Shown: one piece after another, positions 26,216 to 63,896 of the stretch
Position numbering within the stretch: the first letter of the stretch is position 1
Layout of the letters: each line of letters opens with the position of its first letter
NCBI GenBank assembly: GCA_963921825.1
Contig: OY997588.1
Span: 81,039,043-81,103,042 of the forward strand
Direction: 5' to 3'
DNA from: Erodium maritimum
Lineage: Eukaryota > Streptophyta > Magnoliopsida > Geraniales > Geraniaceae
DNA: 64,000 nt
Translations under genes and position numbers: made by a program
Notes under the pieces: generated by a model
Seen by the model: the letters and a program-made list of their open reading frames with translations, nothing else
Databases searched by the model: none
What the model was told of the DNA's origin: nothing

Positions 26216-26837
26216 GATTTTAAATTCTAGGTCCTGTGATTAATACTACTAGGATGGAACACGTGCTACTAGAAAACATTTAAAAGATTCTGGTATGTAT
26301 TTTGAAAACGTGCTTACATATTTCACATGTTAGCCTAATCTTCTTACAACAATTCCATGCTTCTAACCAATATATGTACTTAATAATACAATGATGAAGT
26401 CAATTTTCTGTTCCATCACCTACCAACTATTAGAATACAAACAAAATAATAAGATGGAAGTCAATTTATCAGCTTCAACTACTGTATAGATCACATGACA
26501 GTGCTCAATGATCATCAAAATACTCGAATTGATTCACATGTATAATGTATAATTGTTTCTTGTGACCTCGGAACCTGTTGGGCTCTCTTTCATGGTACAC
26601 AAAAGTCAACTTTGCAGATGCACCAATTGCTGAAGACTCAAATGATGACAGAGTGTAAGATGGGAGGACTAATAATGCAGAGTTCATATCGTCTAAACAA
26701 GTCAAGAATGGCAGCTTGGATATATATGTATCCACTGAACAAACGCTAAGAAAAGCTTAGGAAGTTTCTCCATAGATTTATATATGCATACCCTTTGAAA
26801 TGATGAATGTGCATAAAAAAATTCCTCTCTTTTTCCA
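26216..26837. other. Intergenic, upstream of the LRR gene
   Basis: AT-rich DNA. The 26740-26837 stretch holds TATATATGCATACCC and a pyrimidine-rich leader (TTCCTCTCTTTTTCC) just before the LRR start and is the likely core promoter and 5' UTR. A short minus-strand frame at 26505-26735 has no recognised domain and is not called as a gene. Confidence 0.45.
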
Positions 26838-29800
26838 ATGCTGAATTCTATGAAGCTCAACGGTCTTGGTCTGATCATCGTTCTACTCCTTTCAGCAAGA
26901 ACTTCTCTTGCTCACCAGTGCTCCGATGAGCAGCAATCACTCCTCTTGCAGTTCAAGCATGACTCTTTCCCAGCTTCAAAGTTAGCAACTTGGAAGGCAG
27001 ATACAGATTGTTGTTCATGGAAAGGCGTTGATTGTGACCGCGCCACTGGTCATGTCATTAGCCTCAACCTCACCACAAGTGGACTCTCCTATGGTCAGAT
27101 TGATTCCAACACCACTCTATTCAGACTTGGCTCCCTCCTCAAGCTTGACCTCTCTGGAGTTTCATTTGCCTCTTCCACCGGTCAGCTTGATGCTACTTAC
27201 TCCGGTGGTAACGTTTCTGTTGAAACTACTGAGGATGGTGGTTCTTCCAGCTCTCCCCAAATCCTCGTCATCCCTTCGGGGTTTTCCAGGTTAGCGAATC
27301 TCACACATCTCAATCTTGCTAACTCAGGCTTCTCTGGTCAAGTCCCACAAGAAATGTCACTCATGACTAAACTTGTATCTCTCCATCTCTCCTACAATGA
27401 ATTGGAGCTCCAAAACCCGAACTTGAGGATGATCATCCAAAACATGTCCAGCTTGAGAGAACTCCGTCTTGATGGAATTGATATGTCAAGTCAAAACAAT
27501 GATTGGTGTGAGACTATATCCTCTTCACTTCCTAATCTTCATGTTTTGAGCCTGTCAGTCTGTTCTCTTCCTGGTCCTATCTGTTCCGGTCTCTCCAATC
27601 TTCACCGGCTTAGAGAAATCAATCTTGGGAGTAACAATCTATCGTCACGAGTACCTGAATCTTTAGCCAACTTGCCTTCTTTGAAGTCCATTGATCTCGG
27701 TTACTGTGGATTGCAAGGCGAGTTTCCGAGAGGCATCCTCAAGTTAGGTAGCCTACAGAAAGTGGAGTTATCATTCAATCCAGACCTCGTTGGTTTATTT
27801 CCGGATTTCCCTCAGGAAAGTGCTCTTCAGGAGTTGTCACTCTCATTCACAAAGTTCTATGGGAAGGTACCAGACTCAATTGGCAATCTTAGGCACTTGA
27901 CTACTTTGTTTCTTGAAAACTGCAATTTCTCAGGAAAAATTCCTACCTCCATTAGCAAGCTTACCAAACTTACCTTTTTTAGTCTTTCCTCAAACAAATT
28001 CAATGGTTCAATACCGTCTCTAGTATCCCCAAACCATACCTTTGGGCTTGTCAGTCTCAAGTACCTCAGTTTTCAGAACAACTCACTCGATGGTGAAATC
28101 GACAGTTCCTTGTTTAGACTTCCATTATTGCAATGGTCTGCCCAAAGAGGTTGGAAATAAGCCTTCCCCATTTTTGTCTCAGCTGGATTTGAGGGGCAAT
28201 CTTCTGCAAGGGCTTGCACCTAAGTTCTTGTCTGCATTGAGGAGCCTAGAACAAATCTTTCTTTCTTCCAACAACATGAGTGGGACGGTGAATCTTAAAA
28301 TGTTCTCCGACTTGAAGAATCTTAGTTTTCTTGATCTATCAGACAACCCTGGACGGTAACTTCCACTACGAACTTAACCTTTGACAAGCTCGAGAAACTG
28401 GAAATGAGGTCATGCAGAATACAAGAATTCCCGGGTTTTCTAAGAAACATTCCACATTTAGATTTTCTTGACCTTTCCAGAAACCAAATCAAAGGCCAAG
28501 TACCTAACTGGATTTGGAAAAGCAGTTTGAGCTACTTAAATCTTTCTCTCAACTTACTTACTGGTTTAGCGCAACCGCTCCCTGTTGCTTCCTCGCTCAG
28601 CTTGATCTCTTTGGACCTTCATTCAAATAAACTAGAAGGCTCGATTCCATTCGTGTCACAGAATCCGACATTTTTGGATTATTCTGATAACAAATTCACA
28701 TCCATCATCCCAGCTGATATTGATAGCTATGTGCTTAATGCCACTTTCTTTTCGGCTTCTGGAAATAAGCTAGTGGGAGAGATTCCTCAATCATTATGCA
28801 GAGGTACTAGACTTGAGGTTCTTGATCTGTCAAATAACAGCTTCCATGGCACAATCCCGAGCTGCTTAGGTGACTTCAGTGCCTCTCTATCAGTTCTCAA
28901 TCTAGGTGGTAATAACCTGCAAGGAGCCATGCCTCGGATTTATGCAAGCAGTCTAAGAACATTGGTCTTCAATGGAAATCGGCTACAAGGAACAGTCCCA
29001 AGGTCTCTATCTTCCTGTAAGCTGCTTGAGGTACTGGATCTTGGAAACAACCAGATAGACGATACCTTCCCATTCTGGTTGGAGAACTTGCCAAGCTTGA
29101 GAGTTCTTGTGCTGCGCTCCAACAAGTTCCATGGATCAATTGGCCTAACAAGAACCAAGAATCCATTCTCAATGCTCCATGTCCTTGACATATCTTCAAA
29201 CGGCTTCACGGGTCATCTCCCATCACAAAGCTTCCACAAATGGAAAGCAATGATGAATCCTGACCGCGAGAAGTCCCAGAGCAAGTATCTAGGAAGCAAG
29301 TACTACCATGACTCGGTGACAGTGACCATGAAAGGGCGTGACATGCTGCTGGTAAGGATATTAACCATTTTTTCATCCCTGGATCTGTCAAACAACGATT
29401 TCAAAGGAGCGATTCCTGAGTCAATAGGAGAGCTCAAGGCGCTGCACGTGCTCAACATGTCCCGTAACAATCTTGATGGCCACATACCAACATCGATCCA
29501 GCAACTCCACCAGCTTGAATCGCTAGACCTATCAGAAAACAAACTGGTTGGGGAGATTCCTGGACAGCTCACAAGTTTGACATTTCTTGCAGTCCTCAAC
29601 CTTGCATGGAATGAACTCAGAGGACAGATACCCCGAGGCAGACAGTTCGACACGTTCAGTGCACTGGCCTACGAGGGGAATCCAGAGTTATGCGGGTTTC
29701 CCCTGCCAAGACAATGTCAAGGTAGCTCGAAGCCATTGCAGCCTCTTCATTGGGACTCAGAGGGTACTTTTGAGTGGAAGTTTGTGGTGATGGGATATGG

Positions 29801-29921
29801 ATGTGGGCTTGTAGCTGGGATAAGCATTGGATACATGTTGGTTTGGAGAGATGATGGATGGTTTTCAACACTCATAGCAAAGTGTCAACAGAGAAACAGA
29901 AGAAGAAACAAGATACACTGA
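26838..29921 (+). pseudogene. LRR receptor-like protein (RLP), two frameshifts
   Basis: Single-exon plan of the RLP class (Cf/Ve/EIX-like): signal peptide (LGLIIVLLLSARTSLAH), LRR N-terminal cap with paired Cys (DTDCCSWKGVDCD), more than twenty extracellular LRRs (LxxLxLSxNxLxGxIP type), C-terminal cap (GNPELCGFPLPRQC), an acidic spacer, one membrane helix (FVVMGYGCGLVAGISIGYML) and a short basic tail (KCQQRNRRRNKIH). Such proteins sense microbial or developmental ligands at the plasma membrane with SOBIR1-type kinases. The first frame is open to 28160. Around 28115-28140 (after SSLFRLPLLQ) the LRR pattern moves to the +1 frame and several residues seem missing. Near 28345 (after LDLSDN) it returns to the first frame, open from about 28350 to 29921. 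No GT-AG intron explains this. It is either a recent pseudogene or carries two sequence errors. An alternative start is the second Met, 15 bases on. Confidence 0.88.
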
Positions 29922-43928: not shown

Positions 43929-44450
43929 AGGTAGCCCAGCCCGGACATCGGTGTCGACCCGATATCCTCAGAGGCATCTCACGACATACCAGCGAGGACT
44001 GCTGCGATTCAATGCGGCACGAGTACCTCGCCCCCGCACCAGACGCCCGCCTGGGGTGTCGCCATACTCGTTTGGGGGAGATGCAGATGGAGTAGGTTGG
44101 GAGAAAGAGGCAATGAGCCCAACCCTAGTGATAATGGACCCGATACCTAAGGCTCGGTCATCTTGAGGGATGAGGACCGGGGTAACAATGGACCCCGGAC
44201 CCCCGAGCCTTCACCTGGGATGCCGGGCAAGTGCCTAGGATGAGCCCTCTAGGTGGTCTTATGCGAGAGCCCCGACTTTTGTACACGGGAACATCTGGCA
44301 GGCGGTTGGTGGAGATCATCCCTTCTGTTCGTTCATACTACCTTTTCATGGTCGAGGAACATGTTACTCGAGGCATTTCGATGTAATCGTTCTTAAATAG
44401 TAATAAAATTGCACAATCGTTCAAAAAATACTCTCTGTCTGCAACTCAGT
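43929..44450 (+). other. Unclassified GC-rich unit with poly(A)-like end
   Basis: To the right of the solo LTR GC-rich coding-like DNA continues: RHLTTYQRGLLRFNAARVPR, then PYSFGGDADGVGWEKEAM, stop at 44164. It is followed by a 3'-UTR-like stretch ending AATAAAATTGCACAATCG and a short A run at 44427. Composition on the left of the LTR (from 40801) is alike, so one older GC-rich transcription unit may have been split by the LTR. I do not recognise it. Confidence 0.4.
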
Positions 44451-44677
44451 GTGTTTTGATCTTTCTCTTTCCCGATGAGCACAACATAAATTGCAGATCA
44501 AAGGGGGGAAAAGAGAGAATAAGGAGAGGGTCATTCCTTTGAGGCCCTAAGTAGAGGGTCATTTAATTTATTTGCTCATGGCTTCCAACCTTGGACTTGC
44601 AATGTGGCGGTGCTGTGTTGTTCGTGTCTCGGCTTCTGTCGATAGCCGAAACGAGTGCGATAGAGGCGCCTTGTAGG

Positions 44678-45488
44678 CAGTGGCGGATTTAGGTTTCTCG
44701 ACGAGGGGGGCACTAAATTCTTTTTATAATAACAAATAACGTCAAAATAATATAAGACACGATAATATTAAAAAATTATTATCGCGTAAAATTAATAGAT
44801 GACTAGTTACTAGAAGACGTGATGTCGAGATTGTATATTTTGAACAATTTATTATCAATACAATCAAAAATTTATTTATGTTGTATGAGATCATTACTAT
44901 CATATATTTATTGGTCTCACATTCGTTTTTCAATCGAGTCTAAATGTTATTCGTAATTGAACATACTCTCTCTCTCTCCTGTCACGATCATACCATAGTA
45001 ATTATGTAAAGAATTACTTCAAAACTCAAAACCTAAATGATAATAATAATAGATTTTGTAATAAACTAGTTTAAAATAAGATATTTAAATAATTAAACAA
45101 TAAAAAAGTTGAAATATGATGAACATAATTGAAATAAATTTCCATGACCGTAGTAATTTTTAGAGGGAATCAAACTTTTTTTTAGGAATAGAGAGAATCA
45201 ATCTAAAGTTGTGTAATCTCCAACTTTAAATAACATATTAAATAAGAATAATTGTTTTTACATTAATTAAAAATGAGAAATTACAAAAATGAAAATGGTA
45301 AAGAATTAAGAAATATAATAAAATATACAAAAACAACACACACAGATAATTCATTTGGATTAGTTGTCGTTGGGAAATAAAAAAGAAAATGAGGAGGGGC
45401 ACAATTGAAAATAGAAACAAATATGGGTAATAAAACTAGTTCTCGAAAAGTTGAGGGGGGCACGTGCCCCCCCTTAAATCCGTCACTG
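44678..45488. mobile_element. hAT-type MITE with perfect 8-bp target duplication
   Basis: Ends CAGTGGCGGATTTAGG and CCTTAAATCCGTCACTG, flanked by CTTGTAGG at 44670-44677 and 45489-45496. CAGTGGCGGAT-type ends plus an 8-bp duplication are classic for hAT non-autonomous elements. 811 bp; the AT-rich interior has no transposase. GGGGGGCAC sits just inside each arm. Confidence 0.92.
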
Positions 45489-45496
45489 CTTGTAGG

Positions 45497-45682
45497 AGAG
45501 GTTGAGGATTTGAGTTCTTCACTCGAGTTTGAGGAGCTTGAAGAAGACGAAGCAGTAGGGATTGTCTCTGATGAGGTCGCCAACCTCCATGGATCAAGCC
45601 CATGAGAAGAATAAGAAAATAGACACAGAGCTCTCTGGTCCGATCTGTTGGGCCCAAAACTCTTAAGGCCCATTATGGCTTG
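45497..45682 (-). other. Possible first exon of a divergent gene, disrupted
   Basis: On the minus strand, DPWRLATSSETIPTASSSSS runs into SSEELKSSTSPT and is then cut by the hAT MITE target site; host-like sequence resumes left of it at 44460-44669. The Ser-rich start and its position back-to-back with the neuroguidin promoter suggest a broken divergent exon, but no family is recognised. From 45658 the sequence is shared with 53338, so the duplication border lies here. Confidence 0.35.
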
Positions 45683-45685
45683 TAA

Positions 45686-46520
45686 GAGCATCCACATCAG
45701 TGGGAGGGGGGATCACGAACCCTGGGGATGAACCCTATGCTGACTGGGCAGGGTTTAGCCCCCTGCCCCCCTAAAATTTATATGTGATGCACATCAGAGG
45801 GGCTTGTATGAGGGACTTGATTTTCAGAAATGATGACTGTGTAATTAATTAAGCTTTTACCTGAATCTGCTAACGTTATTTTTAAATCAACAACTACTAA
45901 ATAAAATAGAAATAAATTCATAAATACAAATAAAAGTTCATTAATAAAATACAAAATTTAAAAATGACATAAAAAATAAAAAAAATACATAATTCAAATT
46001 GACAATTCATTTGGTCGATATAAGCTTCTGCAATGATGAATTCTTTGATAACCGTTACTAATACCATATATATATTTTTTTTGAAATACTGACAGTTACT
46101 ATTCTTGATAATAACATTTGGGCATCGTCGTTGGACATTTTTTATCGCAACAGAAAAATTATTTTTAAAATAAAAACTAATTTTTAAATTTTAAAACCGA
46201 TTATTAAATTTAAAAATTGAGTTTTAAAATTAGAAACTGATTTTTAAAATTTAAAACTAAATTTTTTACCTATAAAAACCTAATTAATAACCTTACCATA
46301 TATTAACCTAACTAATTACTATATATTAACCTAATTACTAACTTACCATAATATTATTCTAACCTAATTAATGCCCAGGTTACTGTGCTTCTTCTCCATT
46401 TACTGTTGTGTCTGCGTTTGTTTTTTTTGCAGGCCACGCGTAGGCAATGGAATGTACGGCGGCGAAAACAGCGAGGCAGCGGGGCTTGTTCTTGCCCCGC
46501 GCCCCGGACTCGCGAGGCCG

Positions 46521-46557
<37 letters not shown>

Positions 46558-46668
46558 ACCACGCACCGCGCCCCGCACCCCACATCGACCCAACCTCGGA
46601 CCCTCCCCCTGCTGGCACCTGACTCGCGCACCGGCCTCGCTCGCACGCCCCGCTTGATGTGGGTGCTC
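45686..46668 (-). mobile_element. PIF/Harbinger deletion derivative in the neuroguidin promoter region
   Basis: Ends GAGCATCCACATCAGTGGG and GCTTGATGTGGGTGCTC, TAA at 45683-45685 and 46669-46671. Interior phrases match the element at 19249 in reverse (the AGCTTTTACCTGAAT...AACGTTATTTTTAAATC stretch). The start codon region of the transposase is seen on the minus strand near 46125 (ACATTTTTTATCG complement), the rest of the gene is gone. A run of 35 C bases lies at 46523-46557. The paralogous stretch near 53360 is an empty site (TTGTAACCC), which confirms the target duplication. It ends ~95 bp before the neuroguidin start codon. Confidence 0.9.
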
Positions 46669-46762
46669 TAACCCTAACTAAACCCAGCTCTCGGGTCGAG
46701 TCAGTCCTCTGTGATGTGCCTTCTTTGCTCAGCTTCTGCTTTCTCCCTTCTCCATATCTTTC

Positions 46763-49700
46763 ATGGAGGAAATTGCTAAGACCAACAGTTTCGAAGATGA
46801 AAGGATAAACAAGTTGAGTTTCTTCATATATTTTGTGCTTCTACTAATATTGGTTCAGCTGAATATGTAGTGGTGTTTTTTTTGTTGTATATTTATTATT
46901 CGTGAAATGGGTTTTGTAGAGAAGCTCCTCAGCTGGTTTCACTGCTGAAAGAGATAAAGGAAGGGCTAGACTTAGTGAGGGCCAAGGTCCAGGCTTTGAC
47001 AGCAAAGGTGAGAATGAGTATTTATTTTCCGAGTGCTTAAATTGTTCAAATAAATGGGTATTTTGTGAAATTTGAAAATGTGGAATATAATGAGAAAAAC
47101 AAGGTCATGTCATGAATATGCACGAGTGTGAGGGATGCAATATTGAAAGACAAGGAACTGATCACTTGATTGATTGAATTGAAAAGATTACAAGATTGGA
47201 ATTACACAGGAAGGTCAGTCAAGCTTGCTACAAGCTTACTGTCCAAACCTTGCTACAAGGTCTCTGTTCTTCGATACCTACTACAACCACACCTACAGAT
47301 TCAAATACTACCCTACATACCAAAATGGGTTACTGCAACCCTTCATTTCCATCTTCTACAATCCACCTACACCAGCGTCACCTCCCCTTTGTCTTCTTCA
47401 CTGAGAGGCTGACCCGGTTGACCACGAACAAGGACATATCGATAGCTTGGCTTGGGGAGCACGGCTGGGCTTGGGCCTTCTCCTTCTGTTGGGCCAATAT
47501 ATTTGAACCCCACTCTCTTCTTCATGGACCCATTAACCTTAGCGATCCTGACAATGCCCTCCATTTCATTCGGACTTGACCTCAAGTCCGGTATTGGGAA
47601 CTCGGGAAACTTGTCCCTGAAGGAACGTGCCTCCTCCCACCTTGCGTCTTCAATGCAATCCGGATCCCATTGGACGAGGTACTCCGCCACTACTTGCTGG
47701 TTTCTCTGGATTAACCGAAGCTTGAGAATCTTGTACGGCTCGGCTAGGAGCTGTCTGTCCTTGCCGGTTTCGGGTAGTTGGGCCACAAATGTGTGACGTT
47801 TACCCAGTTGTTTCTTTAGGAGAGAGACGTGGAATACATTGTGAACTTTTGCAGTGGCAGGGATCTTAAGCTTATATGCAACCTTCCCCACTTTTGACTT
47901 GACTTCAAATGGACCATAGTACCTTGCCGATAACTTCATGTTCTTCCTTGGGACAATGGATGCTTGACGGTAAGGTTGGAGTCGAAGGCACACCCAATAT
48001 CCAGCTTGGAATTCCCTCTCCGACCGATGCTTGTCAGCGTGGAATTTCATCCTCTCTTGGGCTAATTCCAGGTTCCTTTTGAGCATCTGAGCAATGGAAG
48101 CTCGGTTCCTCACGAACTCTTCCACGGCAGCCACGGCAACCTCTAATTCTGAGGCATTCAAGGACCTGGGTGTGTATCCGTATACCACTTCAAACGGGGT
48201 CATGCCCAACGTTGTATGGAAGCTGGTATTATACCAGTACTCAACCAGCCCCACCCATTTGCTCCATATCTTCGGTTTCTGATGAACCATGGCGCGAAGA
48301 TAGTTCTCTAGACATTGGTTTAGCCTCTCCGTCTGACCATCCGCCTGGGGTGATAAGCTGATGATAACTTCAATTTGGTGCCCACGGCTTGGAACAATTC
48401 CCCTCAAAATGAGCTTGTGAATATCTTATCCCTGTCCGTGACAATGGAGTCGGGCAACCCATGAAGCTTGTAAACATTGTTGATAAACAATTCAGCCACC
48501 ACCGAAGCCGAGAAGGGATGCTTTAGAAGGATAAAATGCCCATACTTGAAATATCTATCAATGATTACCATGATACACTCATACCCTGATTACTTGGGCA
48601 GCCCCTCTATGAAATCCATGGCTATCTCCTTCCATGGTTTTGTGGGGATCGGAAGAGGTTGTAAGAGCTCTGGGTATGGAATGTTCTCGCTCTTGCATCT
48701 CTGACAAGTCTCACAAGACCTGACAAATTCCTTGATCTCCTTGGTCATATTCGGCCACCAGAACTATAACTGGACCCGTTTGAGAGTTGCCCTTACTCCG
48801 GAGTGGCCCCCGAGGGCTGAGGTATGAAGTGCTTGAAGTATCTTCTCTTTTGCTCCCGATTCCTTGCCTACATACACCTTTCCCCCAATGTATATCACCC
48901 CGTTATTGAGCTGGTGGTTTGGAAGTTGGGATGGAGTGATTGCCAATTGTAGCAACAGGCCTTCGGCTTCTAGGTCCTCAACGTAACTGCTTGCTACTTC
49001 TTCCATCCATGCCGGAATCATAACCGATACAGCCCCACACTCGTGACTGTCCTGGCGTGATAGTGCGTTTGCTGCCTTGTTGCTTGTCCCCTTCTTGTAT
49101 TCAATGGTATAGTTTAACCCCAAGAGCTTGGCCAACCACCTTTGTTGGAATGATGTGGTCAGTTTTTGCTCTAGGAGAAACTTGAGAGGTTGATGGTCGA
49201 TTTTGATTGTGAAGCTCGTTCCCAAGAGGTAGTGCCTCCATTGCTTGGTCGCTATCACTACTGCGAGCAGCTCTTTCTCACAGGTTGACAACATACTGTT
49301 TTTGGGACCTAACACCTTGCACAAGTAGGCTATGGGTTGTTTGTTCTTCATAAGGACTGCCCCGACTCCGGTGTCACATGCGTCCGTCTCTATGGTAAAG
49401 GGCAGTTGGAAATTCGGAAGCTAGAGGACAGGGGCTGTGGTCATCGCCTCCTTTTGTTGCTCGAAACTGTTTTGTGCCTCTTCTCCCCAATGGAAGACAT
49501 CTTTTTTCAGCAAGTTGGTTAAGGGCTTTGCTATGATCCCATATCCCTTGATGGATTTCCAGTACCTTTAAGTTCTTGTGTACCGGCCACACCCTCATTG
49601 CCTCGATCTTCTTTTGGTCGCTAGCGAACCCTTCCCCCTATATGATATGCCCAGATATTCAACCGAACCTCTCCCGAATTCGCATTTGGATTTCTTAGCA

Positions 49701-52700
49701 AATAGGGACTCAGCCTTCAACTTCTGTAATACTAATTCGAGATGCTGTGTATGCTCTTCCCAGTTCTTACTATAAACCAAAATGTCATCAAAAATAATGA
49801 GAACAAATTTTCTTAAGAAGCTTTTGAATACCTCATCCATTACTTCTTGGAAGGTTGTCGGTGCATTTGTGAGGCCCAAAGGCATGACCTTCCATTCGTA
49901 GTGGCCATGGTGGGTTCTAAAGGTCGTCTCCTCCTCCTCCCCTTCCTTGAGGCATATCTGGTGGTAGCTCGATCTCAGGTCGATCTTGGAAAATATGGTA
50001 CTACCGCACAAATCATCCAACGCCTCGTCGATCGCAGGAATAGAGAATTTATCCTTGATCGTGAGGTCGTTGAGTTTGCGATAATCAACACAGAACCTCC
50101 AATTTCCATCCTTCTTCTTCACCAAGATGACGCGAAACGAAAATGGGCTTGTGCTATCTCTGATGATCCCTAAAGCTAACATCTCTTCCACCATTTGTTC
50201 CACCACCCCTTTCTGCTCATGGCTGAGCTTATAGGGTCTGATCGACGGTGGGTTTTCCCCCTGTATTAGTAGAATTGTGTGATCCAATCGCCTTCTGGGT
50301 GGTAGAGATTTTGGCTCTTGGAATACCTCTGTGTACTTGTCAAGAATCCCCAACAATTCTGGTCTTGTTTGCCCCTCCTCGATAGCTACACTACCCCCCA
50401 CTTCATCAATCCTACAGAATTTCCCCAAGAGAAGATCATCTCCTTCCCTCATTTCACGCTGGAGGATGGTGAAATTGATCAGTTGAGGTCCTTGTCGTGT
50501 GCCTGTCTCCTTAATGACCACCAATTGACCCTCAATTTGAATCGTAACGGAGCGCTGGATGTGATCGAAGGTGACTGGGTTGACACAGGTGAGCCAATCT
50601 GCCCCTAAAATTAAGTTGCAGTCGCCCAACGGCATGATAAGAAACGAACCCTCAAAGGTGAAGCCGACAATTTCGCATATAACCCCGCAATCCGACCCAC
50701 AGAAGAAAACTTTACCATTTGTGAATTTGACTTTCCGGCGTCGGGTGGGTTCGAACCGCAATTGCAACCCCTTGGCTGTTCGCTCGTCGATGAAGGATGA
50801 CGTCGCTCCGGTGTCCACCAGGATAGACATGGGTTTCACCCCAATCAACCCTTGAATCCTCATCGTCTTCGTCCCGATTGGTGGACCCATGAGGTCGCCG
50901 ATAGCACAAACCCTCTCTTCGACAGCCTCATCCTCCTCTTCCTCAATTTCGACGGGATCCACCTCGATTTAGGGGCCCTGGTCCATGGTGACCTCCTCTT
51001 CATCTTCGTCGTCGGACTGGCTTAGCCGATAGAGCTGATTCTGGTTGGGACAGACAAGGCGATGCTCGTCCGTGTATCGTGTTGGGCAATTGAAACAGAG
51101 CCCTCGTCGTCGTCTCTCCCGAAGATATGCTGGGTTAGCCTTGGGCCATGCTCCTTCCCGTTGGGCTCTTGGACCTCCCCGATTTAACCCCATGTGACGT
51201 GGGCCTGGGTTGGGGGTTAAGTTGGTTTGGAACTCTTGGGCGGCCCACATACGGAACTAAGGCCCGGGACTGAGAGATGGTAGGCCCAGAACTGCCTTCT
51301 TGCTTCTGTTCTTCCAGACGCGTGAGTCACATGGCTTGGTGTATCGATGTCGGCGACAACATCTTCACGCCGACCCTGAGTCTCGGTTTCAGGCCGCTGA
51401 CGAAACAGGAGATAAAGTACCCCTCAGAGAAGTAAGGAAACTCAGTGAGAACCATGGCTCTGAGCTCATCGAACCGATCTTCATACTCTGCTACGGTGCC
51501 CACCTGCATCAAGTGCTTAAACTCTCCGATTGGGTTGTCGAATCCCAATGCTTCGAACTTCCATGCCATATCCCGACAAAGGTCCTCTCATAGCAGATGT
51601 TGCCTACCCAGGTGATACATAGTAAACCAAGTTTCGGCTTTCCCGGAAAAATGAAGGGAGGCCAGTTGTATCTTGAAGTCGTCGGGGATGCGGTAGAAAG
51701 TAAAATACCCAACTGCTTTTTGGATCCAAGAGCGGAGGTTTGAGCCATCAAAGGTTGGGAAGGTGAGGTGTGGTATATGGGGTTGTGGGTGGTGAGGTTG
51801 TTGTTGTTGTTGGGTAGCTTCGTTACTGTCTCTGTTTTGGGGGAGATCAGTTTGTGGGGGCTGGGTTGGGCAGTCGCGGATGGGAAACGCTGCTTGCCAG
51901 TGGGGTATCGACGTCGGAGGGAACGAGGAACCGATGATGTGTGGTGGGTCATGAAGTGGCTGTTTGTTGCGATCGCGGCTGTCCCCCGGGTGGCTCGCCA
52001 ACGCCTCTCGTGGTGGTGCGTGACCACGCAGCTCTGCCAAGACGGCGTCGACGGAAGCCTTGAGGCTGGCTTGGCTCTGATGAAGCTCGTCAATGCGTGC
52101 GTTCATGCCTTGGAGGTTGGATTTGAGCTGGGCTTCGGGGACGGAAGCGTTGCTGTGCTCGGAGGAGTCTTCAGAAGAGGTCATGGCTGGGTCATACGGC
52201 TCTGATACCAATGTGAGGGATACAATATTTAAAGACAAGGAACTGATCACTTGATTGATTGAATTGAAAAGCTTACAAGATTGGAATTACAGAGGAAGGT
52301 CAGTCAAGCTTGCTACAAGCTTACTGTCCAAACCTTGCTACAAAGTCTCTGCTCTTCGATACCTACTACAACCACACCTACAGATTCAAATACTACCTTA
52401 CATACCAAAATGGGTTACTACAACCCTTCCTTTCCATCTTCGGCAATCCCCCTACACCAGCGTCACCTCCCTTTTGTGTTCTTCACTGAGACGCTGATCC
52501 AGTTGACCACAGACAAGAACATCTCGATAGCTTGGCTTGGGGAGCACGACTGTGCTTAGGCCTTCTCCTTCTGCTGGGCCAATATATTTGAACCCCACTC
52601 TCTTCTTCATGGACCCATCAACCTTAGCGATCCTGACAACGAGGAGTGCTATTAGGAAAATTCTTATCTGCAAGCAATAATTGTTGCCTTTTTGATCCAA

Positions 52701-54290
52701 ATTTGGCTATTGTTGGTTGGTACTGTAACATAATGCTCTAGTGAGTTGCTACTTTGTTAGTTAAACACCAAGGGTAGAATTACTAAGCGTTTGCTAGGTT
52801 GTTTTTAATGGCTAAATCATCGTTGAACACTTGGTGCTTTTACAGTAAAAGCACCTAAGGTTTTTTTTCGACGTTTTTGTTATTTTGAACGTCAAGATAA
52901 CTAGTTTTATGTAAATATTGATCATAAATAATATTTTTAGGCTATTATCAATGTCCCGAGCCTGAAAATTTGAATTATTTTGACCCCGAACTGAAAATAA
53001 AAATTTTAGTTTTTTTTATGTCAACTACTATAGGTTTAATTGCTTCTACTACGGCATATCATGGTGTCACACAAGAAATAAAACATCTGCTACATCATAA
53101 CTATGGCGTAGCAGATGTATTTAACCCTATATTAAAATTTCATTTTACTTCTGAAGTCTGAACCTTCACGTGCGTTTCTCTCTTCTTCTGCGCGGTTCCT
53201 TCGTCTCCAGCATCTGTCCAACCTCCGTCCAGCATCAACTCTTCTGTCCGGCCTCAACTCCTCCCCTCGGCGGCTGCGGCGGCACTGTAAGAGCAACGTA
53301 GTCTTGAAATAATAGATATTTTCTGGTTTGTAACCCTAACTCTTAAGGGCCCATTCTGGTTTGTAACCCTAACTAAATCAGTCCTCTGTGCTGTGCCTTC
53401 CTTGCTCAGCTTCTGCTTTCTCCCTTCTCCATATCGTTCATGGAGGAAATTGCTAAGACCAACGGTATCGAAGATGAAAGGATAAACAAGTTGAGTTTCT
53501 TCATATATTTTCTGCTTCTACTAATACTGGTTCAGCTGAATATATAGTGTTTTTTTTTCTTGTATATTTATTATTCGTGAAATGGGGTTTGTAGAGAAGC
53601 TCCTCAGCTGGTTTCACTGCTGAAAGAGATGAAGGAAGGGCCAAGGTCCAGGCTTTGACAGCAAAGGTGAGAATGAGTATTTATTTTCTGAATGCTTAAA
53701 TTGTTCAAATAAATGGGTATTTTGTGAAATTTGAAATTGTGGAATAGAATGAGAACAACAAGGCCATGTCATGAATATGCACGAGGAGTGCTATTAGGAA
53801 AATTCTTATCTGCAAGCAATAATTGTTGCCTTTTTAATCCAAATTTGGCTATTGTTGGTTGGTACTGAAACATAATGCTCTAGTGAGTTGCTACTTTGCT
53901 AGTTAGACGCCAAGGTTAGATTGCTAAGCGCTTGCTGGGTTGTTTGTTAATGGCTAAATCATTGTTGAACATTTAGTGTTTTTAGTCCTGCTTCCTGCCC
54001 ATCTTCAGTCCTACACTTTTAGCTGCAAAACCAACTATTACCCGTCTCCTAGACCAAAACTATCAGCCCCCCATTCATGCACATGCTTGCTTATATGCTC
54101 GGCACCTTTTTTTTTGCTATTTAGTGGAGAGAACCAAGTACCTTTTTTTTCTGTCCTTGACAGTGAAACAAAGTAAAGAGCCTTGTGTTGATGTAATTTT
54201 TGTGTTTATATATATATATATATATACCTTTTTTTTTCTGTCCTTGACAGTGAAAGAAAGTAAAGAGCCTTGTGTTGATGTAATTTTTGT

Positions 54291-54335
<45 letters not shown>

Positions 54336-57300
54336 AAGAAATCCCATGGTGTGCATGAAATGACAGTTTGGCATGTGAGGTTGTACTTTCAACATTGCCC
54401 CTGTATTTGTACATTAGGTGAAGGCAAATCAATTTCCAACTGCTGATGAGATGAACTATCTCGAAGCTAAGCATCTGTTGCTTCTAAACTATTGCCAATC
54501 GATTGTGTACTATTTGCTCCGCAAGGCTAAAGGTTACTCAATAGAAGGACATCCAGTTGTTCGGAGCCTCGTGGAAATAAAATTATTTTTGGAGAAGGTC
54601 AGAATCCTTTCCTCCTTGGTATTCTACTATCCACTCGATCAACCAGTCTTATACCTTTTGTCATATTTATGATGACAGATTCGGCCAATAGACAAAAAAC
54701 TCCAATACCAAATCCAGAAGGTTACAAGGGTTAGTGCAGGCACAACAGGTGCAGCAGGTCCTAGTGAAAACGAAGCAAATGCACCCCAGAAAACAGAAGA
54801 TTCGCTGAGTTATCGCCCAAATCCTGACCTGTTAGCTGGCAAAAATGATATGACTAATGAGGTAAGTCAAAATGTAAAGATATGGACAACTTTTCTAATA
54901 TATCTCCTGCAGTATGGGCATCCTTCTTTTTTTTTCCTGTCTACTATACTTCAAGAAACGATTATACTGTCTTGTTTTAAAGCTTGTATCTATATCCAGC
55001 AGGATGGTAATGGTCTGTATCGACCTCCCAAATTTGCCCCCACAACTATGGAGGAAGATAAGATGTCAAAACAGGAAAAGAATGAGAAGAGAAAGGAGAA
55101 GGAATGGTTACGCCAATCTAATCAGAGTAGTTATTTGAGAGGGCTGATGGACGATATGGAGGGAAGACCTGAAGAGGTTTGTTGTGGACTGCTGTTATGT
55201 TGATATTTGATTAGGCGGTCTTCAAGTGTATCTTCTGCTTAACCTTTCATATTTTGTGGGTGAAACTCAGGTCAGGGAAGTTAATGGAGCTGAAAGTAGA
55301 GAGCTTACTAGATATAAAGAAAAATGGGAAGAACGTGCACAGCGAGAAGAGGAGCTTTTCACTCGTGCTCCTTTTACAAAGATGGAGAAAAAGAGAGAAA
55401 AATACTTGAAGACGCCAAGAAATGGGTATGTTGCAATTCAAAGTCTAAACTCTACATTTCTTTTGGAGTTATCGCTTATCATTATTGTCGGCATATGCTT
55501 GACTGTTTATTTGTTTGTATCAGGTTGAATGATATGACTGAAAATTTCTTTGATGAAATAAAAACCTTACCAATTGGAGATGATCTAGACGAACAATCAA
55601 AAGGCTTCAGCAACAGCAAGAAGGGAAAGTTTAAGAAACACAAGGTATAATACTCTCTTGTAGTCATGAATCTGATTACTATACATCAACCTGTGGTTTA
55701 TGCTTAGTATTATGTTTTGTTCATGCCAAGGCTCCAGATAGACTTATGTGATATATATATATATATATATAGGGGCACTTTCACATGTTACCCATGCTTA
55801 AGTTGTTACTTGTTATCCAAATCTAAACCATTGAATTTTTAAATCCAATGGCTATAGATTTTCAGCCTCAATTATCTATTAATAAAATAGAAAAATCAAC
55901 AAAAGGGCATTTTGGTAACTTTATCCCCTTTAAATTTTTACTGCAGAATTTTATTTTTACTGTCAAATTTTTTTGATATTTCATTTTTTTAAAATTAAAA
56001 TTCTGATTTTTTTTTCAAGATTTCGTAATTTATGTTATAGATTATTATATATAATATTACAGAAATTTATGCCGGATATTATAGAAGTTGTTACCAAATG
56101 TTCCAAATTCTATGAGATGTTCTGAATTTTAAACGGTGAGGTTTCACAAACTTTATAAAAGTGTTACAAAAAACTACACTGAAAGATACAAAACTTTATA
56201 ACTTGCAAAAAAACTACACCATATTTGAGTTACATAATCCAAACCCTATTGTTTCCGAATGTTGTACGAAAAGTTACACAAAAATACACTGTCAGCTACA
56301 AAACTTTGTAAATTTACAAGAACCTACACCAACACTACATTACATAATCCAAACCCTGAAGTTACAAAAAATACACTTTCAGAGTATTGTACGGAAAGTT
56401 ACACAAAAATGCAATGTCAGTTACAAAACTTTGTAACTTTATAAAAACTTATACCAACACTATGGTTACATAATCCAAACCCTAAAGTTACACAAAAATA
56501 CACTGTAAGTTACTTAACTTTGTAACTTATAAAAAAATACACGAGTTATATAATCCAAGCCTTGTTCTTACAAAATATTACACGAAAAGTTACAGATTTT
56601 TATTGTAAGAGATAAACACAATTCGTTATACAAACATATGCTAGTTAACAGTTACAAAAACATGCCCTAAGCATTACAGAAACATTATACAAATGTTACA
56701 TAAAAATACACTAAACATTATAGAAAAATTGTAACAACGTTACACAGAGCTACCCTGAAATTTGCAGGAGAAACAATATTGCAAAACTTTATTTCCGCTA
56801 TGCTCATTCTCAATACCTCTATGCCCGAGCCAATAAAATTCAAGAGTTAATTTCGACCAGCTCTCCCGAACATGAAACATGAAATCAAGCAATAAAATAT
56901 TAAATTATCAAACAATGAACCTGAAATAATAGAAAATCAGAACTAAACCTATATCAGAAATCACATATTTTTATATATAAAGATATAAAATAGAAAAAAT
57001 ATTAATAGCCCCCAAAAAACAACCTTCTATGGCAAGGCTCATTGTGGTGCGGTACTATTCGTCAAACCTGCCCCATATTCTCGAGCATGAATTTGAGCTC
57101 GAGAACGCGGTGGCCTGAGCAGCGGTTTGGGACAGTGACAGAGGCGAGAAGCTGGGCTTTGGGTGGATTCCGATTGTCTCAGATCGGAGGTGGCACGGGA
57201 GCACGACGCAGACCGGGGCGGCGGGGGCGAGGAGGTTGGGCTGGTCTCGCCAGAAGGATCTCCTTTCTCGGCGGCGGCCACTCGGGCGAGGGTATGCCCC

Positions 57301-58486
57301 ATGGTCACGCTCGACCAGATCTGAGCGAGCTGAGCATGGCGGCGCGATTCGAGCTCCATCCGGCGACGACGGGAGGCGAGGTGGCTGGGTTGGTTTCACA
57401 GTGGCTGTGGCGACGAACCCGGACGGAGAACGCCAACGCGTGATGAAGAGAGGACGAGAGAGGATGGGTGGCGTGTAAAATTTGTGAATGTGTAGTTTTG
57501 TTGTTAGGGTTAAGGTAAATAGCTAACTATAAAGTCTATTTTGCCCTTATGCGTGTAAAATATCAAATAACCAGTCAAACTTTAACAAAATTACATGTTC
57601 ATGCCACTCTCATTATCAGCCTTTGGATGTAACCGATCCAATTGTCCATAATAAGGTAATAAGTAACAATTTAAGAGAAGGTAACACCTGAAAGTGGTTC
57701 TACATATATATATATGCCATTTCATTTGTTTTGAGTATACATGATCGAATGATTGTGTTAAACTTGGGGAAGCAAATAACCCTGGCTAGACCTAAGTTGA
57801 TGTGGAAAGTAGTAGGAAAAACATGAGAGCTCTTGGATATATGGAGGGTGGTAAAAATATGAACGGAAGAATTTAAGGAGTTCTGATAAAGGGTTCATGT
57901 AACCCTCAAACTATGTTTGGGAAGATGGCTTCGTTTCTATTTTATTCATTAGTTTCACCATTTGTATTTCTAGATTGCCATGGAGTTCTTGCATTGACAG
58001 ACATACGGTCATGCAACTGCACCTTTAGCTGGGAATGTATTTACTCTAACAAAGTAGCACTATATGATTTGTACATCCGGTGGTGAAAAATTTGTTTGAC
58101 CACACATGTTAAGTAGTTTTATTCAATTAGAGTTTTCCAAGTAGAAATTGGTTTTCTTTTTAGTCAAATATGTTAAAGATTGCTGAGATATTTTATGCAG
58201 TATAGCCACCACTAATGAGTATAGGAAAGAATTGGGAACGTAAACAGCTTTCTGCTCAGACTTTCATTGAATTTGAAATCATATTGACTAGGTTTCTATC
58301 TTTTAACACTTACCTTGCCCATCAAATACATTTGATCTTCTTGTATTGTATCCATGTTACCTTTATAATTAATTGGTGCTCATTAAATATCTGTACACAG
58401 CGGAATTGATGGTTACCATAAATAACGCTTTCTGCATAAATTGATGGTTACCTTTGTTTTTTGTCTGTCCACAGAGGAAACATTGA
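46763..58486 (+). CDS. NGDN: Neuroguidin/LCP5-like Sas10/Utp3/C1D protein, SSU processome
   Basis: Eight exons with fitting phase: 46763-46812, 46920-47007, 54418-54597, 54679-54861, 55003-55176, 55271-55425, 55524-55644, 58475-58486; about 320 aa. The N-terminal Sas10/Utp3/C1D domain covers roughly residues 17-105 ([60 protein letters not shown]). The middle is acidic/charged with [15 protein letters not shown], a family hallmark, and the C-terminus is basic (KKGKFKKHK then RKH). LCP5/neuroguidin works in the nucleolar small-subunit processome in 18S rRNA processing. The last coding exon is only 12 bases (AGG AAA CAT TGA) and is the least certain; without splicing the protein would end KHKV at 55650, and CGGAATTGA after an AG at 58399 is another option. 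Intron 2 is 7.4 kb and holds a Ty3 fossil and a dead copy of exons 1-2. Intron 7 holds a 1.9-kb foldback element. Confidence 0.88.
47127..47553 (-). repeat. LTR of the Ty3 fossil (3' LTR in element direction)
   Basis: 427 bp. Plus-strand ends TGTGAGGGATGC and CGATCCTGACA. Same length as the partner at 52212-52638. It contains a TATA-like stretch CCAATATATTTGAACC near its inner end. Confidence 0.92.
52212..52638 (-). repeat. LTR of the Ty3 fossil (5' LTR in element direction)
   Basis: 427 bp, TGTGAGGGATAC to CGATCCTGACA on the plus strand, next to the primer-binding site at its inner side. No length change relative to the other LTR, only substitutions. Confidence 0.92.
52850..53337. other. 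Spacer between the two duplicated blocks
   Basis: Begins at a small palindrome GGTGCTTTTACAGTAAAAGCACC (52832-52854) where the first duplicate ends. 53165-53285 is a pyrimidine- and GC-rich leader-like stretch (GTGCGTTTCTCTCTTCTTCTGCG ... CTCGGCGGCTGCGGCGGC in part). TAAGAGCAACGTAGTC at 53288 looks like a worn PIF/Harbinger end. It could be the promoter region of the duplicate or an inserted element; not resolved. Confidence 0.35.
53338..53978 (+). pseudogene. Dead duplicate of neuroguidin exons 1-2 with flanks
   Basis: Copy of the block at 45658-52846 without its insertions. It holds exon 1 at 53440-53489 ([16 protein letters not shown]) and exon 2 at 53595-53666. Exon 2 lacks 16 bases relative to the first copy (GCTAGACTTAGTGAGG missing after KEMKEG), which shifts the frame to a stop within seven codons. 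Splice sites still look good. The intact exons 1-2 are those at 46763-47007, farther from exon 3. If the transcript includes the dead pair it loses the frame. Confidence 0.9.
54141..54331. repeat. 86-bp tandem duplication with TA microsatellites
   Basis: 54141-54226 and 54227-54314 share CCTTGACAGTGAAA, AGTAAAGAGCCTTGTG and TGATGTAATTTTTGTG. Each unit ends in a (TA)n tract; the second runs to about 54331 with ~18 TA pairs. It lies about 90 bp before exon 3 of the neuroguidin gene. Confidence 0.9.
55771..57702. mobile_element. Foldback element with GC-rich cargo in neuroguidin intron 7
   Basis: Left arm AGGGGCACTTTCACATGTTACC and, inverted on the right, GGTAACACCTGAAAGTGGTTC; weaker pairing extends ~110 bases (CCAATGGCTATAG versus CAGCCTTTGGATG). 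(TA)n tracts flank both sides, so the target repeat cannot be fixed. 56160-56600 is a ~112-bp tandem array (TTACATAATCCAAACCC recurring). 57030-57480 is a sharply GC-rich island with open frames on both strands and no recognised domain, the look of a captured host fragment as in Pack-MULEs. Type (Mutator-like) is inferred. Confidence 0.6.
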
Positions 58487-58648
58487 GTTAAAGAGTAACT
58501 TGCTGAGTGTGAGGCTCGTGTTATAAGAATATGTTTGTAGTAGAGAGAGAAACTTGAAAGTTACATTTGGAACAGTTTTGTTAACCATTTAAGCCTTTTC
58601 TTATGTTTGATCTTTTCAGATGATGCGCACCACTATATGTTAATTTAA

Positions 58649-59012
58649 GGGATAATTGTCAAAACATGCACTAAAGCTTCGTCCACAAATGAAATAGTGC
58701 ACAATGTTTCGGCCACGTTGTGTGGCTACCCTAAAGTTTCGTCCACGAACATTTGTTAGTAAAATTACTTAAAATTACTTATGAAACCTAAATCAACAAA
58801 TTACTTTAGAGTAGACACACAACGTGGACGAAAGGTTGTGCACTATTTCATTTGTGGACGAAACTTTAGGGTAGCCACACAACGTGGACGAAACGTTGTG
58901 CACTATTTCATTTTGTGGACGAAACTTTAGGGTAGCCACACAACGTGGACGAAACGTGGTGCACTATTTCATTTGTGGACGAAACTTTAGTGCATGTTTT
59001 GACAATTATCCT
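58649..59012. mobile_element. Mutator-type MITE with internal 61-bp repeats
   Basis: Ends GGGATAATTGTCAAAACATG and CATGTTTTGACAATTATCCT; flanks TTAATTTAA and ATAATTTAA match 8 of 9. Inside, GTGCACTATTTCATTTGTGG recurs at about 58840, 58901 and 58962, a ~61-bp tandem unit with GTCCACGTTGTGTGGCTACC-type phrases. 160 bp downstream of the neuroguidin stop. Confidence 0.82.
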
Positions 59013-59021
59013 ATAATTTAA

Positions 59022-59800
59022 TTCCTGTCAGACTCATGTTATGAAGATTGATTTCCTTTGAGTCATAGGAAAAGATAAGACATTTTAATTTCAGTCAGAT
59101 TTGGTAATTTCATTTTTTTATGATTGTTTAGATAGCAATGATTCTGGATCTAGTTGTCTCAGATTTGGTAAGCACACAATGCACATGCTCAATTTACATG
59201 ATTCACCTAAAATCAGAATTGTATCGAAACAAATACGATCTAAACTGAACTTCTCGTAAAAGTAATGAATCATACATAACTTTGTTTACTGTGCTATCAT
59301 CCCATATACACCTGTGACCTTAAGAAATAAAGAAAAGGTAAAATCATGCGACAACTCCTCACTATCAACCAAGAGGAAACATTTATAATTGATGCATCGT
59401 ATATTTTATTTGAGAGAATGGTAATGGGAAATTCATATATCTATTTCTATAGTCACTACAATTATTTTGATCAAATTTGTTTTAAAGAAAAAATAGCAAT
59501 AATAACCATGGTATTTTATTTTTAATTCTAACCTCTGATATTCATGTAAATGTTACCCTGTCCATCTGTCTCTTTCAAATCTCAATATATTTTGATTTAT
59601 GAAAAAATTGGTTGTTTAGTTGTGTTAGGAATTGGATGAATGTATACAAAAATTTCACTCATTTTACTGTGGTTTGACGAATAGAAGTCTAAATTTCTCA
59701 AATTTTCCGAAAATTTTCCTAATCTGCTAATGAATTGAAGCATTAGGTTAGGTATGTGCGGTACCATGAAATAAACTCAAGGTTTTTAGTAATTTACCTA
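59022..59800. other. AT-rich intergenic DNA
   Basis: No gene, RNA gene or clear element end was seen. The 3' UTR of the neuroguidin gene should end before the MITE at 58649. Confidence 0.5.
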
Positions 59801-59810
59801 TATATCTAGA

Positions 59811-60777
59811 GGGAAATTTGGAAATATATGCTTCATAACATAGCATATTTTTCTAGTATGCCACTATGATTCAATATTTGTAAATCTATGTTTTTGAAAT
59901 ATTTTAGGACAATAATACCCTCATTACTATTAGTTTAAATTCTAAAATAAATTGTATATGAGAGGATTTGAACCACGGTTCTTCAAGAAAAAATATTTGG
60001 ACTTAACCAATTGTGCTAAATTACTTATATGTATTGTAGCATTTTATTATTATTTTTTACTATACTTTATTATATACTAAGTTCTCGTACTACACCTAAA
60101 TTTAAAATAAAAATATGAATAATTGAAAAATACTTATGGTGAACTCTGCACGTTTTGCAAATACTTACGATGTATTGTTTTTGTTACAAATACTTATAGT
60201 GTATTATTTTTCATGCGTTAAAAGTGTGAAAACTAACGGAAAATTGGGATTTTAGAGGGTGTGCAACTTTAAAATTTTCAAGATAAATAAATATGTATAT
60301 ATATATATATAAATATATTTTTAAATAGTATTTATTTATTTATTTTGGAAATGTCAAAGTTTTACATGCTCTAAAATCCGAATTTTCCGTTAGTTTTCAC
60401 ACATGAAAAATAATATATAGTAAGTATTTTCAACAAAAAACAGTACACCGTAAGTATTTACAAAACGTGCAGAGTTCACTATAAGTAGTTTTCAAATATC
60501 CTTATTTTTATTCTAAATTTTGGTGTAGTACGAGAACTTAGTATATAGTAAAATAAATAATAAAAGGCTATAATACATATAAGTTATTTAGTACAAGTGG
60601 TTAAGTTCAAATATTTTTTCTTGAACAACCATGGTTCAAATCCTCTCATATACAATTAAGATTTAAACTAATAATAATAAGGGTATTTTTGTCCTAAAAT
60701 ATTTCAAAAACATAGATTTACAAATATTGAATTATAGTGGCATACTAAAAAAAATATGATACATTTCCAAATTTCCC
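59811..60777. mobile_element. 967-bp foldback element with 8-bp target duplication and nested core
   Basis: Ends GGGAAATTTGGAAATATATG and CATTTCCAAATTTCCC, flanked by TATCTAGA at 59803-59810 and 60778-60785. The arms pair over about 330 bases (for example CTAAGTTCTCGTACTACACC and GGTGTAGTACGAGAACTTAG). The core, about 60125-60500, is itself a palindrome (GTGAACTCTGCACGTTTTGC and GCAAAACGTGCAGAGTTCAC), either a second MITE nested in the first or its loop. Non-coding. Confidence 0.85.
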
Positions 60778-61431: not shown

Positions 61432-63896
61432 ACTAGTAATAACTGATTGTGGGTGAACGCGCCCCACGCGCGCACGCCTAGGGTTTTTCTGCGCGTTTCG
61501 TGCGTCGTCGGCCAGTGTGCTTCTTCTCCGGGGCAGTTACAAGCGTGGGGGGTGAGTTGCGTGAGCTTTATATCTCCGGTCGAGACTGCGTTTGGACGCC
61601 GGTCGTGGCAGAGGCGGGGGCGACTTGCCAGGAGTAAGATCTGTTCTGAGGTGTCGTGACAGAGGTGGAGAAGTGATCGACTTCCTCGCCGGCGTGTCTC
61701 CAGGTCTCGGGCGGACAGTGGGGTTGTTCCTCGCCGGCGTGTCCCGGACGGAGTGGAACTCAGGGCTGGGTTGTAGGTGTGTGGGGTTGTTTCAATCCCC
61801 GACTGTTTTCCTTCGGCTCGTCACGGTGACATTACACATCGGACTGGACTTACTGATCAAAGAGGAGCTACCCATTCTAGCTTATGTTGCTCTCGGAGTC
61901 AAGTCTGTGGATCCACAATTCGGCGCGCAAAGAATTTCAGGCGGAATCCAAAACTTCGGAGATGGAGCAATCCCCAGTTTACCACGAGAAATTAATTGAA
62001 GGTAAATTGTTCAGAGTTCCTAAACTGTCGTCGGTGATCTACAGGTTGGAGAATTCTACACAGGTGCCGATCAGAAGCTAGGTTATTCGAGATGAAGAAA
62101 TTATTCCCACTCCGGTTGTCGAGCACTCTTCGAGTCCGATCAAAAGTGGGGAAAGTGCTAGAACAGATTCGCTCAGTCCTCATGCTTCAAAGGAGTTGTG
62201 CAAGCTCTTCATCTGTAATCTTCCTCCTGAGACGAATAGGTTGAAATTGAGATCCTGGTTGGAACAATTCACTCCTGTGTTCAGAGTTTTTGTTTGCAAA
62301 AGAGAAAATGCAGGTGGTCGTTTCTTCGGTTTTGCGTCGGTTCGATCAATAGAGCATGCAAATTTGTTAGTGAAGGCCTGCAATGGTATGGTCTGGGAGC
62401 AACACAAGGTCTTTTTGACCATAGCTTGGCCGGAGGGACTGAATAAAAGGTTGGGGAGAAAGGAGGTGGATCAGGTGTGGAGACCAAAAGCTCGGAGCAA
62501 TTTTGAACAAGTTAAACCTGTGGCTGGCCCTACCCTCTATCCAGAAGTTAAAGGCACTTTATCGAGCTATTTATCGCCTTGGTCGGAAGCGAGTTTGCTG
62601 GGAGTTGCAAGGGATGATTTATCTATAGCAGAATTACGGGAGCATATCAACAATGAAGCACCCTTGGACCTGAAATTCAGATACCTGGGCAACAGAATTT
62701 TCCTGCTTCTTTCATCTGATCAGGAAGTTCTCCCTAGTATTCTGAATTCAAAGTGGAAGTGGTGTTCCTCTGCCTTCATCATGTTCGACTGGGCTAAGGA
62801 GTGGTTGAAAGCAGAGGGTAGCTTTTCTTGGGTTAGAGTTTCTGGCATCCCGATCTCGGGGTGGTGTTTGGCGACTTTCAGAGAACTAGGAAATTCACTT
62901 GGGACCTTTGTTCTATCCCTGCGTGATGAGACCTCGACTTTGTTGGATTTTAACTATCTCCTGTTAAAATTGAATTCACACGCCCAATCCTTCTCTCGAG
63001 ACTTGATTTTGGAAGGGAAGCGTTATCCCATTGACGCTAAGAGAATTAACGTTTTATCAGTCAATGTGCCAGAATTTGAGGTGAAGCATCAATCCGTGAC
63101 CTACAAAGAGGCCCTCGGTTTGACTGACACGTTGGGACTTCCGCCTCCGGAAAGATTGTTGAAGGATAAAGGCGTGTTGTGTGCATCTCCCTCGGCGAGC
63201 AAAGTGTCAGATTCGCAAAGTCAAAGTCAGAATTAGAACAGTCCGAGCCCATCCAATCTCTAGCGTGAACCTCAAGTTTCTCGGGCCGAGGGATCAGTTA
63301 ACCGAAACCTGTTGAGTTCAGGTAATAATCCTAACTATGTGTATCGGTCATATGCAGCTAGGAGGTGTTCTTTGAGCAAAGAGAATGCAGATCGTGATAA
63401 AAAGTGGAAATTATTCAAAGCTAGTCAGAAAGCTATTGCGGTTGATCCTGAAGCCGCAGACCGGATAGAAGCTTTGGACTTTGAATTGGGAGATTCTGTT
63501 GACCCTGAACTTCAGGAGGACTCTGATGATTTTTGCATTGATGACGAGTTAGATGAGGGGGTATCTCTACCCTCTTCTTTGCCTCTCTAATCAGAGTCGC
63601 TTGGTAGTTTGGTGTGGTTGAATTTTTGTTGTATCACCTGCTGGCTTTTTGGTTACAAAGAAACAGTGTGGTTTCAGGAGTAAGTTTCTCTGGCAGGTGA
63701 CTTAGTGCGTCTTACGAGCAAGTTCAATCGCCGAAGACTACTGGATGGAGGGTAACTTTGAGTTATATTTCATTATTTTTGGGTTATAGTTTGAGTTTCT
63801 TTTGTTTCGTTTCTGGTGTAGCCTTTCGAGGTGTTCGTTTTCAGGGTTCCATCTTGGAATCATGCAGCAATAAAATAATCGCCTATCCAAAAAAAA
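61432..63896 (+). mobile_element. ORF1-only LINE with target duplication and poly(A)
   Basis: A 15-16-bp direct repeat AATTCTAAGAGGCCCT (61416-61431 and 63897-63912) flanks a 2.47-kb element. The 5' part (61440-61960) is a GC-rich leader. One long ORF1 frame follows, then a short 3' UTR with AATAAAATAATCG and a terminal A run. There is no endonuclease, reverse transcriptase or space for one, yet both ends look complete. So this is an ORF1-only, non-autonomous LINE that moved with another LINE's enzyme. Confidence 0.88.
61962..63590 (+). pseudogene. LINE ORF1 protein (RRM plus DUF4283-like), three TAG stops
   Basis: The frame starts MEQSPVYHEKLIEGK and ends DELDEGVSLPSSLPL, about 540 codons. 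It is broken by TAG at 62079-62081, at 63234-63236 and near 63270, all in the same frame, with no frameshift. An RRM lies near 62200-62420 (KLFICNLPPETNRLKLRSWL, RNP1-like GGRFFGFASV). A DUF4283-like part follows (LREHINNEAPLDLKFRYLGN, KWKWCSSAFIMFDWAKEWLK). A Ser/Gln-rich stretch and an acidic tail (PELQEDSDDFCIDDELDEG) come last. Plant L1 ORF1 proteins bind element RNA. The stops are all of a kind a CAG to TAG change would give. Confidence 0.85.

Follow-up and report, generated by a model that had tools for sequence, protein, structure and literature searches.

Decay of one gene in a recent duplicate pair is a known kind of process, and in tandem exon duplication an exon is repeated directly, retains its splice borders and can enter the mRNA in frame. 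Here we describe a locus that shares traits with both. It lies in a 64,000-nucleotide (nt) stretch of Erodium maritimum DNA (the window; C1:81039043-81103042, in a genome of 763 Mb on 40 contigs) and encodes a putative neuroguidin whose 5′ block, comprising promoter, exon 1, exon 2 and part of intron 2, is present in two same-direction copies: A, far from exon 3, and B, adjoining it. As in the decay of a duplicate pair, there is an intact sister gene, on contig C8, and the C1 copy carries a frame-breaking deletion and transposon inserts; it differs in that its two half-damaged 5′ ends partly complement each other, so that the C1 copy is not formally dead. As in tandem exon duplication, a directly repeated exon has kept its splice borders and could be included in frame; it differs in that the C1 repeat takes in the promoter and first exon, its frame is open only through a deletion, and its inclusion is a prediction. 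Our literature search returned no comparable case combining most of the features of this locus. We consider it probable, though far from assured, that the C1 gene is the damaged member of a neuroguidin pair, that copy B was its working 5′ end until a recent deletion, and that the locus is decaying with the intact C8 gene as backup.

The C1 gene runs from exon 1 to exon 8 over 46763-58486. Its protein matches PF04000 (Sas10/Utp3/C1D) from residue 26 at 64.4 bits (cut-off 30), and its top match among solved structures is human neuroguidin (7mq8 chain NC, E value 3.4e-33, 118.5 bits), compared with 50 bits for the human SAS10 chain. This domain, and neuroguidin over SAS10 as the best match, mark the product as a likely neuroguidin (NGDN/Lcp5), a protein of the small-subunit processome; the C1 gene is set apart by a 5′ end that is doubled and damaged. 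A genome protein search (17 candidates scored) found neuroguidin exons on C1 and C8 and no third neuroguidin beside them; weaker matches (42-45% identity) on C2 and C3 are, judging by their reading frames, probably of SAS10 type. The C8 gene (C8:6927096-6924080) has one copy each of the eight exons, the same splice borders and a stop-free frame of 322 amino acids (aa), and so is the intact sister gene in the same genome that is expected beside a pseudogene. With 20-nt flanks included, C1 and C8 agree at 97-99% in exons 2A and 3-6 and at 92-95% in exons 1A, 7 and 8. The segment around the C8 gene is collinear, in reverse order, with the window and with sequence past the window's right end.

Exons 1 and 2 occupy 46763-47007 in copy A and 53440-53666 in copy B, and the blocks are paired by repeat families D3, D4, D5, D7 and D9 at 88-97% identity. 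When A and B were aligned with both A inserts removed and 48 gap columns dropped, 34 of 645 gap-free columns differed (Kimura two-parameter distance, K2P, 0.055); one gap, of 19 columns, lies in the B leader. Damage in copy A consists of a 983-base-pair (bp) promoter insert and a 5.5-kb Ty3 insert in the intron, and in copy B of 16 bp gone from exon 2. These data bear out an earlier note on this DNA, which had described the block as present twice and placed A far from exon 3, beyond a 5,512-bp Ty3 fossil, a spacer and copy B. Exons 1A and 2A are intact; the A promoter is split by an insert that the note did not report. The same note had named an intact paralogue elsewhere, together with silence of this locus, as telling against its view; the paralogue half is borne out by the 322-aa gene on C8. 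The features of the locus are:

45649-45672, plus strand: site II motifs (TGGGCC/GGCCCA; motif scan) of the A promoter, ~1.1 kb from the A start codon, with one more at 45597
45686-46668, no strand: PIF/Harbinger-type insert, 983 bp, that splits the A promoter; target duplication TAA
46670-46677, plus strand: telo box AACCCTAA of A
46763-46812, plus strand: exon 1A (coding part), intact
46920-47007, plus strand: exon 2A, 88 nt, intact
47127-52638, minus strand: Ty3-type long terminal repeat (LTR) retrotransposon fossil, lying antisense to the gene within A intron 2
52847-53337, no strand: spacer between the blocks
53332-53372, plus strand: B promoter, two telo boxes (53332, 53365) flanking one site II motif (53348)
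53408-53409, plus strand: acceptor-like AG before exon 1B that could turn exon 1B internal, with a product that stops early
53440-53489, plus strand: exon 1B (coding part), same as in the C8 gene
53595-53666, plus strand: exon 2B, reduced to 72 nt by a 16-bp deletion between 5-bp repeats; read without a stop when placed behind exon 2A
54418-54597, plus strand: exon 3
54679-54861, 55003-55176, 55271-55425 and 55524-55644, plus strand: exons 4-7, open
58475-58486, plus strand: exon 8, including the stop codon

Compared with C8, the 16 bp missing from exon 2B lie between two 5-bp repeats, with six equivalent placements. Read from its own ATG, B1-B2-3 meets a stop at codon 38; this lies 8 nt short of the exon 2B/3 junction, and more junctions follow. 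Exons A1-A2 joined to exons 3-8 give an open frame of 320 aa, and A1-A2-B2-3 onward gives one of 344 aa with a 24-residue insert; the locus thus has at least one predicted spliced frame that is open from start codon to stop, as a coding gene would. Exon 2B can be read behind exon 2A, with exon 3 in its native frame, because 88 − 16 gives 72 nt, a multiple of three, and exon 2A closes on a complete codon; a second 88-nt exon 2 in its place breaks the frame (exon 2A was used twice as a stand-in). We infer that the deletion exchanged the roles of the two starts: beforehand, transcripts from B were productive and those from A containing exon 2B were not, and afterwards the opposite held. Simulated exon 2 deletions left exon 2B open in all 55 distinct products of 16-nt deletions and in 738 of 2055 products of 1-40-nt deletions. 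Since about a third of deletions keep it in frame, its openness is no sign of selection, and selection for an in-frame exon 2B was set aside.

Because its 72-nt length keeps the frame behind exon 2A, exon 2B need not be skipped. Its donor is the same as that of exon 2A, its acceptor tract has one changed base, and the intron behind it measures 751 nt, near the 644 nt of its C8 counterpart; on these grounds, inclusion of exon 2B in A-started transcripts is likely. Exon 1B must be skipped: seven AGs, from the start of the block to the last base of exon 1B, could make that exon internal, and six of them would bring an early stop whether or not exon 2B is present. The AG at 53408 has pyrimidines at 12 of the 15 bases upstream (the gene's eight acceptors have 6 to 12), and exon 1B uptake through it leads to a stop at codon 94 with exon 2B and at codon 74 without. 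The earlier note's contention that the gene works only by skipping two exons must accordingly be narrowed: exon 2B may be included, with an open frame of 344 aa, and only exon 1B must go. Its assertion that copy B cannot code agrees with the stop at codon 38, for which reason the competing B-started transcript that it foresaw is predicted to be unproductive.

Substitutions among A, B and C8 bear on which 5′ end the gene used. Along the B-C8 path, 0/122 coding and 29/523 noncoding columns differ (Fisher p = 0.003). The A branch shows coding columns behaving like noncoding ones (3/122 vs 19/523, p = 0.78), and A's three coding changes are all replacements; a fourth coding difference between A and C8 is silent and lies within the stretch lost from B. 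For the C8 branch the counts are 0/122 coding and 17/523 noncoding (p = 0.05). The promoters were also compared. Pairing of telo box and site II motifs is described for promoters of ribosomal-protein and ribosomal RNA-processing genes (PMC3022908). Such motifs lie 75-108 nt before the ATG in copy B and 94-130 nt before it in C8, with one further site II motif at 215; in copy A the 983-bp insert shifted the site II motifs to ~1.1 kb and the telo box is still 93 nt before the ATG. B is favoured as the recent working 5′ end because its coding columns match C8 and its promoter motifs are compact, A drifting and having a split promoter; small as the numbers are, they favour selection acting on B, not A, until the deletion, with A as the drifting copy.

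We propose that, for most of the period after C1 and C8 parted, the gene would have worked from B as A drifted. The 16-bp deletion would have ended B's output, and from then on productive transcripts would be only those started at A with exon 1B skipped. Because the promoter, with its telo boxes and site II motif, is still compact in B and has been split in A, the locus would now yield mainly unproductive RNA subject to nonsense decay, and C8 would supply most neuroguidin. In line with a damaged C1 gene, at residues 57 and 101 human neuroguidin and a Chaetomium Lcp5-like protein agree with C8, not C1. Against the Chaetomium chain C8 scores 53.6 bits and C1 43.6 bits, the two scoring about equally against human neuroguidin (119.8 and 118.5 bits).

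Several observations weigh against this proposal. The gene body does not look long dead, since exons 3-8 are open (12 replacement and 7 silent changes relative to C8) and the ratio of replacement (dN) to silent (dS) divergence is 0.43 (0.0185 and 0.0435), a value not clearly below the neutral 1 (p = 0.08); the human SAS10 chain also gives C1 a slightly higher score than C8 (50 vs 46.9 bits). A has kept its splice borders, and the path from A to C8 leans to constraint on A too (3/122 coding vs 38/523 noncoding, p = 0.06). Numbers are small for the B branch alone (0/122 coding vs 10/523 noncoding, p = 0.22) and for the branch substitutions, which stand at 22:10 for A:B (p = 0.05), or 19:10 in noncoding columns (p = 0.14), and the three sequences cannot be rooted. 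Finally, the duplicated block differs from C8 at 29 of 523 columns and the gene body at 39 of 1340 (p = 0.009), so the duplication may predate the C1-C8 split, or the gene body may have been converted.

That the gene is instead live through A1-A2-B2-3, with the 72-nt exon 2B in frame and a 344-aa neuroguidin bearing 24 extra residues at the exon 2/3 border, strikes us as unlikely. The frame is indeed open across all exons, the identical donor, the acceptor tract one base off and the intron of near-C8 length make inclusion a likely choice, the insert finishes with ten residues that duplicate those natively closing exon 2, and the PF04000 score drops only from 64.4 to 62.0 bits. But such an open frame is one-in-three luck by the simulated deletions, the A promoter is split, the insert falls within the conserved domain, and uptake of exon 1B through the AG at 53408 is possible. 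If anything a little more doubtful is the earlier note's view that the working mRNA is A1-A2-3, exons 1B and 2B both being skipped over 7.4 kb. It too has an open frame, of 320 aa, yet exon 2B, with both splice borders kept, would have to be passed over within a 7,410-nt intron, and an open frame does not require this. We think it improbable, and slightly more so again, that the 16-bp deletion switched the productive promoter from the near to the far copy and added 24 residues, with transcripts that would start 7.7 kb before exon 3 and cross the Ty3 fossil.

An in-frame ATG at 54451 in exon 3 (residue 58) could allow B-started transcripts to yield a protein without its first 57 residues. To this we give very little credence: reading from exon 1B would end at codon 38, ahead of further junctions, so that decay is favoured, and the domain, beginning at residue 26, would be cut. 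We give no more credence to an assembly or haplotype artefact in which A and B are alleles or misjoined contigs. Target duplications around the two inserts are clean, and the corresponding sites in B and C8 are empty; collinearity with C8 holds for the left flank of A and for the right flank of B, the spacer that joins the blocks was not seen whole elsewhere among the matches listed, and no third neuroguidin was found beside those on C1 and C8.

Both inserts that damaged copy A have empty sites in copy B and in the C8 gene. The Ty3 fossil (5,512 bp) is flanked by a target duplication, ACGAG, at 47122-47126 and 52639-52643, its two LTRs of 427 nt differ at 26 of 427 sites, and two of its minus-strand stretches match reverse transcriptase, protease and a Tf2-type SH3 domain. 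Paired LTRs, a 5-bp target duplication and reverse transcriptase mark it as an LTR retrotransposon; its filing as Ty3 rests on the earlier note and the Tf2-type SH3 match. TWA target duplications mark the PIF/Harbinger superfamily. The 983-bp insert belongs to a repeat family (best 40 of 1459 candidate genome places scored) of which eight copies were fetched and seven inspected, the partial match L041 being left out; TAA or TTA stands on both sides in all seven, the window copy included, and the first 14 bases of the insert's two ends agree at 13. Such duplications and terminal inverted repeats are those expected of a PIF/Harbinger-type element. A run of 35 C inside this insert (46523-46557) is a likely weak spot for sequencing and assembly. 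Intron 7 holds a further insert of the locus (55752-57707, ~1.95 kb) with similar inverted ends; it is absent from the C8 gene, where the aligned sequences join at 6924850-6924858. Upstream of exon 3, within intron 2 (54143-54313), an 84-nt unit is doubled in tandem on C1 and single in C8. The first ~180 bp of the spacer (52847-53028) are a dispersed repeat found in tandem rows on several contigs (at least 175 matches; best 40 of 73 candidates scored).

Taken over aligned pieces of at least 100 columns, C1-C8 divergence varies along the segment. For introns 3-7 it is 0.030 (35/1181). Past the right end of the window, six pieces at 77-84 kb give 0.044-0.067; values of 0.092 and 0.099 come from 59.0-59.8 kb and 44.4 kb, and the eight pieces at 30-39 kb range over 0.06-0.18. 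The gene body (54418-58648) is thus closer to C8 than the flanks are as well, for which C1-C8 gene conversion is one possible reason. Dating of A, B and C8 was abandoned, as the K2P distances (A-B 0.055, A-C8 0.066, B-C8 0.046, LTR pair 0.064) are too similar to order three sequences that cannot be rooted. The C2/C3 pair was likewise rejected as a clock for the C1-C8 split; at K2P 0.16-0.25 in three aligned pieces it is older.

If RNA is made here, the locus would show, as a clean natural experiment, how promoters and splice sites are chosen: in transcripts from A, the 72-nt exon 2B keeps the frame whether in or out and uptake of exon 1B breaks it, and from B, B1-B2-3 is broken. As a case of decay, it would offer a duplicate losing function piecewise, for which the intact sister gene and the unoccupied site of each insert serve as controls.

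Searches for RNA genes gave no Rfam match at gathering score in 44000-60000, and hence no intronic small nucleolar RNA of the Rfam families searched, and ARAGORN found no transfer RNA within the window. Elsewhere in the window, 22242-23744 holds a pair of successive open stretches that share a frame and are separated by a single stop; they may encode a PIF/Harbinger-type nuclease. Two long open stretches at 26817-29921 may represent a leucine-rich-repeat receptor-like protein in two pieces, and one of 384 aa at 62082-63236 may encode an RRM-type or LINE-type protein.

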